Below are positions 15,539 through 34,635 of a stretch of 34,635 bases of DNA, piece by piece. Each line of letters starts with the position of its first letter. The first letter of the stretch is position 1. Source of the DNA: Halorubrum sp. Boch-26. Its GTDB lineage: Archaea; Halobacteriota; Halobacteria; Halobacteriales; Haloferacaceae. The stretch covers positions 1 through 34,635 of the forward strand of contig NZ_JARANT010000020.1 in assembly GCF_029889805.1 (NCBI RefSeq), given 5' to 3'. A program made the translations under genes and the position numbers. The notes under the pieces were generated by a model that made no database searches, had not been told where the DNA came from, and worked only from the letters and a program-made list of their open reading frames with translations.

Positions 15539-15785
15539 ACCGGATTCGAACCGAAACCAAACGTACCCACTTCGCTGCGCGCGTCTGGTAGGATTCGAAT
15601 CCTTCGCACCCATTTGCGGCTCACGAGATGCTCGCCGCAAAATACGCGGGACCGGATTCGAACCTGAGGAAGACGTGCTCGCTTGCGTCGCACGCTGCGC
15701 GCGACTTCCAGGGCTCGAATCCGCTACTGCTCTCTCGCTCAGTCGCTTCGCTCCTTCGCTCAGTGCGCGGGACCGGATTCGAACC
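15495..15785 (-). repeat. Array of tRNA-Leu 3'-half/T-arm copies with hairpin spacers
   Basis: Downstream of tRNA-Leu, its T-arm and acceptor sequence recurs in diverged form. A 20-bp exact copy of the tRNA 3' half lies at 15645-15664 (same as 15766-15785, offset 121). Shorter TTCGAA-centred T-arm cores lie at 15541-15553, 15590-15603 (a perfect 14-bp palindrome) and 15711-15722. Spacers repeat too: GCGGCTCACG...CGCCGC at 15495 and 15616 (offset 121), and CTGCGCGCG at 15575 and 15695 (offset 120). The unit is therefore a decayed tandem repeat of about 120 bp. Possible origins are repeated site-specific integration at the tRNA end, unequal recombination, or selected tRNA-like processing elements. 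Confidence 0.7.
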
Positions 15786-15848
15786 GGCGGACCCCTACGG
15801 GATAGCGTCCTAAGCGCTACGCCTTTGGCCTGGCTCGGCAACCCGCGC
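15764..15848 (-). tRNA. tRNA-Leu (anticodon UAG)
   Basis: This 85-nt class II tRNA is on the minus strand. The acceptor stem GCGCGGG pairs with CCCGCGC, followed by discriminator A; CCA is not encoded. The anticodon stem TAGCG/CGCTA encloses loop CTTAGGA with anticodon TAG (15810-15812). A long variable arm (TCCCGTAGGGGTCC) and T-arm GCCGG-TTCGAAT-CCGGT follow. A TATA-like CTATTTTTGAG lies about 28 bases upstream (15871-15881). No intron is visible. Confidence 0.95.
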
Positions 15849-34009: not shown

Positions 34010-34080
34010 GCGCCGGTGGTCTAGTGGTAGGACCTGAGCCTTCCAAGCTCATGGCCCGGGTTCAAATCCCGGCCGGCGCA
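34010..34080 (+). tRNA. tRNA-Gly (anticodon UCC)
   Basis: This is a 71-nt tRNA. The acceptor GCGCCGG (34010-34016) pairs with CCGGCGC (34073-34079) and is followed by discriminator A. The anticodon stem TGAGC/GCTCA encloses loop CTTCCAA with anticodon TCC (34042-34044). The T-arm is CCGGG-TTCAAAT-CCCGG, and CCA is not encoded. A TATA-like GTTTATTGG lies about 50-58 bases upstream, consistent with a short leader. Confidence 0.95.
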
Positions 34081-34335
34081 CTCCCTTCGGTCGTGCGCCG
34101 CCCGTACCCTTGCTCGCTCACGCTGTTCGCTCGCAAGGGTCCCGGCCGGCGATTTTCCTCGCTCCGCTCGGAAAATACTGAGAGGGATTTGAACCCTATC
34201 AGTCGCGCACAGCGAACGAAGTGAGCGAGCCCGTCTGATTCCGGTTCAAATCCCGGCCGGCGCACTCCCTTCGGTCGTGCGCCGCCCGTACCCTTGCTCG
34301 CTCACGCTGTTCGCTCGCAAGGGTCCCGGCCGGCG
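34059..34335 (+). repeat. Exact 93-bp direct repeat of the tRNA-Gly 3' half and trailer
   Basis: Bases 34059-34151 (from the T-loop of tRNA-Gly through 71 bases of trailer) recur without a change at 34243-34335, 184 bases on. Each copy holds the hairpin CCCTTGC...GCAAGGG and ends CCCGGCCGGCG. The 91 bases between the copies hold a hairpin ATTTTCC-(11)-GGAAAAT (34152-34176) and an inverted T-arm-like AGGGATTTGAACCCT (near 34182-34196). They also hold an ATCAG...CTGAT-bounded segment with GAGCGAG motifs. Confidence 0.9.
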
Positions 34336-34376
34336 CATTTCTCGAACGGCACAGGAGAATTACAGTGGTACTGTGT

Positions 34377-34635
34377 TCACCAATTGCCGTCAAATTTGGC
34401 GGTGAAGTCGTAGTGAGTGACGAGGCGGTCGATTTCCCGACGTTTCTGAACTGAGCTCAGATTTGTCTCTACGTAATATCTGCCGGTTATAAAACGCAAG
34501 GAGAATACCCGCGGCTTTAGGCGTGGGATGAATCCGACAACGCCGACACGTTCAACCGTCGATGGCACAGCCTGAGTTTCCCAATCCTCACTTTTAATTA
34601 TCAATCGCTTCAACAGAGAAGTAAGGTCAGGTCGG
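34377..34635 (-). other. Open reading frame crossing the right edge, unrecognised
   Basis: A minus-strand frame is open from the window's right edge to a stop at 34377-34379 (residues include LLKRLIIKSEDWETQAVPS and, across the hairpin, VGFIPRLKPRVFSLRF). I do not recognise it. It may be the degenerate 3' end of a transposase gene whose body lies outside, or non-coding DNA around the IS-like hairpin at 34513-34550. Confidence 0.3.
34513..34550 (-). mobile_element. IS200/IS605-like end hairpin (tnpB 3'-end/omega-RNA type), remnant
   Basis: On the minus strand this reads GGATTCATCCCACGCC then TAAAGCCGCGGGTATTCTCC. The stem CCCACG/CGCGGG (one G-T pair) is framed by ATTCAT and TTCTCC. I recall this layout from the right ends of IS200/IS605-type elements carrying tnpB, where the hairpin belongs to the guide-RNA scaffold. 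No transposase motif is visible inside the window, so it is either the end of an element beyond the edge or a stranded remnant. Confidence 0.4.

Follow-up and report, generated by a model that had tools for sequence, protein, structure and literature searches.

A tRNA-Gly gene followed by copies of its own 3′ end

The window analyzed here, a stretch of 34,635 nt, belongs to a draft haloarchaeal genome (2.76 Mb, 177 contigs), of which it is contig 91. Near its right end lies an intact tRNA-Gly(TCC) gene (34010-34080/81, forward strand; ARAGORN, and Rfam RF00005 with 71 bits), which hosts an array of repeats on the same strand. The last 22 nt of the tRNA, G52 to N73 (34059-34080), open the first copy of a 93-bp repeat (34059-34151), in which they are followed by a hairpin unit, here called unit A, and by a cut-down copy of the tRNA 3′ end (TCCCGGCCGGCG, 34140-34151). 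This short copy is of the 14-nt class (13 to 16 nt) and has lost 2 terminal nucleotides. After a first hairpin (ATTTTCC...GGAAAAT, 34152-34176) comes a module of 71 bp (34184-34254), supported by covariation and scoring 96.7 bits with our covariance model R1 (E 5e-23, although covariance-model E-values are only rough). It consists of an inverted T-arm (34184-34195), a core hairpin (34196-34242), and a direct copy of the T-arm (34243-34254). The last of these is also the beginning of a direct 22-nt copy of the tRNA 3′ end (34243-34264), in a size class of 21 to 24 nt typical of att cores, with which the second copy of the 93-bp repeat starts (34243-34335). There, the 22-nt copy and unit A recur, followed by a short copy that is complete at 14 nt (TCCCGGCCGGCGCA, 34324-34337). 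Modules of the 71-bp type are referred to as family I.

The 2 copies of the repeat are exactly identical, as both a search for repeats and a direct comparison of the strings established, with identity stopping at 93 bp on both sides; they lie 184 bp apart from start to start, separated by a spacer of 91 bp. An earlier note on this DNA had reported an exact duplication of 93 bp with an inverted T-arm-like sequence and additional hairpins in its interior, all of which we confirm: the repeat is perfect, the inverted T-arm (GGGATTTGAACCC, 34184-34196) is complementary to the T-arm of this tRNA-Gly at 13 of 13 positions, and the hairpins are present in a region that folds much more strongly than shuffled sequences (z -6.5). 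What that reading overlooked is that the 91-bp interior is a module present throughout the class, and that a second array lies in the same window. Behind tRNA-Leu(TAG) (15763-15848, reverse strand; ARAGORN), 2 family-I modules follow on the same strand, at 15653-15723 (R1, 82.4 bits, E 3e-19) and 15541-15603 (R1, 57.8 bits, E 7e-13).

Chance can be excluded as the source of the 93-bp repeat because of its exact length and because related genomes share the architecture of the array. Some of these genomes are single contigs with the identical layout, which rules out an assembly artefact as the only cause; the exact copy number in the window is that of a draft assembly and may owe something to the assembler. 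In related arrays (L010 and L105/L013), the 2 A units have diverged, while in the window they are identical, in agreement with the proposal of a recent event or gene conversion. Judging from these sequence comparisons, we conclude that one unit, comprising the 3′ end, hairpin A, and the short copy, was probably duplicated very recently, which would account for the 93-bp identity.

Beyond the array lies the 3′ remnant of an HSDR_N-like gene (type I restriction R N-terminus; 34377-34490, reverse strand), recognized from its translation and from an intact relative beside the orthologous array in L020 (PF04313/PF13588), and truncated by an IS-like sequence. An HSDR_N gene also adjoins an array on a plasmid of Natronorubrum bangense (L209, 2709-3890). 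The IS-like end that had been noticed just past the repeat (34485-34635, no strand assigned) indeed recurs, at 97-99% identity, at or near 4 other contig ends of the same genome; it contains the motif CCCGCGGCTTTAGGCGTGGG, which we take to recall IS200/IS605-type ends. On the window contig, no integrase gene was found to the right of the array up to the contig end, which is this IS-like sequence, nor does an integrase element lie between the tRNA-Gly gene and the array. An ordinary integrated element, with an integrase and cargo between 2 att copies, fails as an explanation of the locus, as the spacing is 184 bp and nothing is encoded.

The module is found throughout the Halobacteria

When 84,980 species genomes were scanned with the core pattern of the module, 54 stretches were found, all in records titled as haloarchaeal and nearly all directly behind tRNA genes, namely those for Gly, Arg, Ser, Leu, Val, Asp, Phe, Ile, and Glu. 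Of 242 Halobacteria genomes searched with the covariance model, 235 contain the module, covering 71 of 74 genera. Across a sample of the phylum, it was detected in 51 of 53 Halobacteria genomes and in none of 242 genomes of other classes. Rfam 15 holds no family for the module, returning just tRNA and weak tRNA-like matches. No module was found in phage records, nor, by exact pattern, in the viral contigs of IMG/VR. Plasmid records yielded a single case, behind a plasmid-borne tRNA-Val(CAC): on an 828-kb Natronorubrum plasmid, this gene and its own module occupy 2358-2435 and 2501-2567 of locus L209.

The modules have the anatomy seen in the window: an inverted T-arm of the host tRNA, a conserved covarying hairpin, and the tRNA 3′ end repeated in direct orientation. 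Among 64 aligned modules, the motifs GTCGC and CGTC are invariant, and a T.T (U.U) mismatch separates the stems. Covariation is strong; since the pairing of the T-arms is partly built in by the way in which the sequences were selected, we also considered the inner helices alone, where 8 pairs have changed on both sides. The folded module has an asymmetric bulge (CT/TYC) and mostly GNA triloops. It folds best on the tRNA-sense strand, the only strand on which its tandem G.A pairs are stable, suggesting that the hairpin acts either as RNA or as that single strand of DNA. Wobble pairs could distinguish the two: in the inner helices, 16 G.U pairs were counted against 7 A.C pairs (p = 0.09), and the summed counts for the stem, CG, and apical positions gave 10 against 3, with G.U rare overall. 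This asymmetry is not decisive. Neither a bulge-helix-bulge splicing motif nor a K-turn could be fitted to the sequence.

Other repeats were encountered as well. A second, shorter module family lies between inverted and direct T-arms (CAGRGAGYG...CGACCGT) and may contain a tandem G.A motif (L019, L046, L047, L051, L122, L129, L139). In Haloarcula rara, 4 near-identical units of about 122 bp stand in tandem behind tRNA-Glu(CTC) (L090, 6962-7399). Matches to the core AGTCGC..CGTCT that were dispersed away from tRNA genes turned out to belong to a different repeat and not to tRNA arrays. This large, dispersed, GC-rich repeat (GAGGCTGGGGAGG.., GGGACTCAAAGGGGCAG, CTGGGGCTTTGGAGG, and TTTATAA blocks) can include the core (L093-L099), and also occurs behind tRNA genes (L114, L115, L120, L125, L130, L140, L143). 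It has no match in Rfam, and has the look of a non-coding RNA or mobile element present in many copies.

Modules are matched to their host tRNA genes

In 4 complete genomes, 65 modules were detected at a cut-off of E < 1e-5, of which 60 follow a tRNA gene on the same strand at a distance of 30-354 bp. Per genome, 10 to 15 of the 44 to 57 tRNA genes carry a module, or a quarter to a third. The remaining 5 modules lie 2.8-12.5 kb downstream, again on the same strand, with an integrase-bearing mobile element in between.

The match of each module to its own host was assessed for 56 modules that had been picked without regard to the inverted arm. Arm and direct copy together fitted the host tRNA better than in 1000 of 1000 shuffles. 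The 22-nt direct copies are perfect in 34 of these modules, and where they deviate, 53 of the 59 mismatches fall in the acceptor part, the T-arm part being better kept. The copies are also a feature of the tRNA surroundings at large: of the 44 tRNA genes in one complete genome, 20 have 12 nt or more of their own 3′ end repeated in direct orientation within 420 bp, compared with 4.6% for other tRNAs.

Over 174 tRNA loci, with the comparison resting on the tRNA sequences of the collected loci, the copies extending to the tRNA 3′ end form 2 sharp classes, of 13-16 nt (n = 50) and 21-24 nt (n = 109), which are absent from the regions downstream of the other tRNAs compared. Long copies start at G52 or G53 of the T-arm, and short copies at around position 60.

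Copy sizes correspond to the att cores of tyrosine integrases

The same sizes recur beside integrase genes. Next to those of the same genus, at loci that are the best-scoring ones rather than a random sample, attR copies measure 13-15 nt (about 15 cases) or 21 nt (3 cases), with exceptions of 17, 31, and 33 nt. Relatives of these integrases are present in 48 of the 51 genomes of the genus, and in L187, L188, L192, and L194, attR copies are followed by an array.

Each of the 5 far modules lies immediately beyond the attR of an element whose tyrosine integrase is located between the module and the tRNA. The cores of these elements, all in complete genomes, are 21 nt (one) and 14 nt (three), the fifth (L175) being more complex. 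PF00589 was detected above the Pfam cut-off in 4 of the 5 integrases; L176 scored below it, with the C-terminal motif visible. In all 5 elements (L174-L178), the integrase gene is located at the attR end, towards the array, and not beside the intact tRNA. Among the elements examined, no autonomous element was found that carries a family-I module at its own end and could be the parent.

As the copies in the arrays fall in the same size classes as attR cores, and as integrase elements lie between tRNAs and arrays, we read the copies as att cores. The earlier note had stated that the duplication is not a plain attL/attR pair. This holds insofar as 91 bp is too small for a normal element, but not for the copies themselves, which behave as integrase att cores.

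Arrays turn over rapidly and modules appear to move between tRNA genes

At the window locus and its orthologues, units measure 72-184 bp and contain no gene. In L021, the tRNA is directly followed by hairpin A; in L018, an additional 113-bp unit ending in a 22-nt copy precedes hairpin A, and the same convergent gene follows both arrays. Between 2 congeneric complete genomes, only tRNA-Asp and tRNA-Ala(CGC), among the hosts typed, carry modules in both.

The cores differ by 5.9 edits across tRNA types within a taxonomic family, versus 8.7 edits for the same tRNA across families, a comparison of short sequences selected by a single pattern that is best taken as a lead. This closeness within families suggests movement of modules from one tRNA gene to another, after which they would be re-matched to their new host. 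Such re-matching might involve recombination in the GGTTC box that the genes have in common and subsequent foldback correction.

Gene-less miniature integrative elements as the most probable explanation

We consider it probable, at slightly better than an even chance, that tRNA-Gly(TCC) is followed at its 3′ end by an array of gene-less miniature integrative elements, resembling an archaeal form of the cassettes known as microCIMEs. This reading draws on the anatomy of the module, the copy sizes, the match to the host, the class-wide spread, and the interposed integrase elements, as well as on the whole-unit differences between orthologous loci and the patchy occurrence of modules in congeneric genomes. 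Direct copies of the tRNA 3′ end, corresponding to the att core of a tyrosine integrase, would delimit each unit, which would hold little besides strand-specific hairpins, one of them flanked by the inverted T-arm. Such short att-bounded units may be left behind or moved by integrases that act at the T-arm or at around position 60, whether in trans or through accretion. Copies could be exchanged and lost when the direct repeats recombine, and the direct copies would likewise permit expansion, while foldback (quasipalindrome) correction may keep the arms of the hairpin matched. The hairpin itself might be retained for its use in recombination or in foldback repair, or through a role as RNA. The apparent spread of modules from tRNA to tRNA counts against the cassette reading, as simple integrase exchange at tRNA-specific cores would be insufficient for it. 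So do the invariant GTCGC/CGTC motifs and compensatory stems kept across the class, which one would not expect of a decayed by-product, the failure to find modules in phage records or, by exact pattern, in IMG/VR contigs, and the failure to find an autonomous element with a family-I module at its own end; neither a moving cassette nor a circular one was observed.

An unlikely alternative is that the modules are functional RNAs: a structured 3′ trailer or a small RNA co-transcribed with the tRNA, which affects its maturation or is regulatory, the inverted T-arm being paired with the copy or competing for the genuine T-arm. A role of this regulatory or trailer type has been proposed for the rtT RNA of Escherichia coli tyrT. 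The fixed sense orientation at 30-354 bp from the tRNA would suit such an RNA, as would the covariation of the inner helices, the invariant GTCGC and CGTC with their U.U mismatch, the G.A pairs stable on the sense strand only, and the concentration of mismatches outside the T-arm part of the copy. However, modules are patchy over orthologous tRNAs and turn over fast, G.U pairs barely exceed A.C pairs in the inner helices, Rfam gives no matching family, and an RNA role leaves unexplained why the copy reaches the tRNA 3′ end in the sizes of att cores.

It is improbable that the arrays are passive debris, left at the tRNA 3′ end by repeated integration and excision of ordinary elements, by template switching, and by unequal recombination, with neither role nor mobility. 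Hairpin-A units with their 14-nt copies do resemble the stripped right ends of elements (compare L177 and L205), and the acceptor part has decayed in some outer copies, but a covarying core conserved in 71 of 74 genera would not be expected of debris.

Quite improbable, finally, is recombination of single-stranded DNA hairpins as in integrons, in which the tRNA T-arm would be the fixed site. The folded module, running from the inverted T-arm through bulge, stem, and bulge to the T-arm, would serve as the site on the cassette, with a tyrosine recombinase or HUH enzyme to cleave it. The hairpin arms do copy the recombination core, the CT/TYC bulge is asymmetric, and the arrays run directionally from a fixed site, with up to 4 tandem units in L090. 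Tandem sheared GA pairs with a GNA triloop, moreover, form a very stable DNA motif, and the module shows strand-specific tandem sheared GA with mostly such triloops. Against this, no module-specific enzyme was identified, the cassettes contain no genes, and the T-arm sequence GTTCRAA, as read from the alignment, does not fit the integron core GTTRRRY. In the logic of its folded hairpin, the module does resemble attC. We attach a similarly small probability to the broader proposal that tRNA 3′ ends of Halobacteria are the fixed sites of an integron-like system, its hairpin site built from the inverted and direct copies of the host T-arm, in which gene-less folded-hairpin cassettes are gained, lost, and re-matched, perhaps serving as buffers or decoys for integrases.

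If the arrays are indeed miniature integrative elements, what has passed for “junk” next to tRNA genes becomes a readable record of integrase activity, and the modules can serve to mark att sites and hotspots of integration. It can now be tested whether tiny non-coding elements ride on archaeal integrases, whether the hairpins protect tRNA genes or advertise them, and how a single module keeps matching more than a dozen tRNAs.

Comparison with known systems

In an open-access literature search, no description of these arrays of hairpin cassettes, each of about 70-190 bp, was found, and near-universal as they are among haloarchaea, they have apparently remained undescribed so far. The rtT repeats of E. 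coli tyrT are likewise tandem units downstream of a tRNA, each opening with the tRNA 3′ end. They are not known to have the inverted T-arm or the hairpin core, however, and the haloarchaeal units differ further in occurring behind many tRNA species and in having no match to rtT in sequence or structure (Rfam 15).

Two other sets of short palindromes show partial likeness. In Methanopyrus kandleri, a reportedly species-specific palindrome (CGTTA-N9-TAACG) lies about 10 bp downstream of half the tRNA genes (PMC5217627); haloarchaeal modules are likewise palindromic and located behind many archaeal tRNA genes, but carry tRNA copies, which the short M. kandleri palindrome lacks. The PATE, SMR, and MITE elements of Haloquadratum are short, palindromic, non-coding repeats as well, but are dispersed (PMC3119063), whereas the modules stand behind tRNAs and contain tRNA-specific copies. 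Dispersal independent of tRNAs fails for the modules, with 60 of 65 at most 354 bp from a tRNA and the rest behind an element inserted at one.

Archaeal elements with tyrosine integrases target tRNA genes and have cores from the 3′ end (PMC8371274). The arrays share this target and these cores, and true members of the group adjoin them, but the units in the window are gene-less and too short for autonomy.

The closest counterparts are the microCIMEs of Streptococcus salivarius, gene-less cis-mobilizable elements of 130-220 bp, which follow in tandem after the target and a full element as tiny units (PMC7563491). The haloarchaeal arrays are likewise gene-less, with units on the order of 100-200 bp, have att repeats that copy the 3′ terminus of the target gene, and lie distal to integrase elements. 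In particular, the direct repeats are of att-core size (13-16 and 21-24 nt), units of 72-184 bp are somewhat below the published range, and all 5 far modules lie distal to a tandem autonomous element, while the window locus itself has none. Unlike microCIMEs, the arrays are archaeal and class-wide, are associated with many tRNA genes, and number from several to about 20 per genome. Their units also hold a conserved covarying hairpin and an inverted host T-arm, and this class-wide hairpin with its inverted T-arm exceeds what known microCIMEs show.
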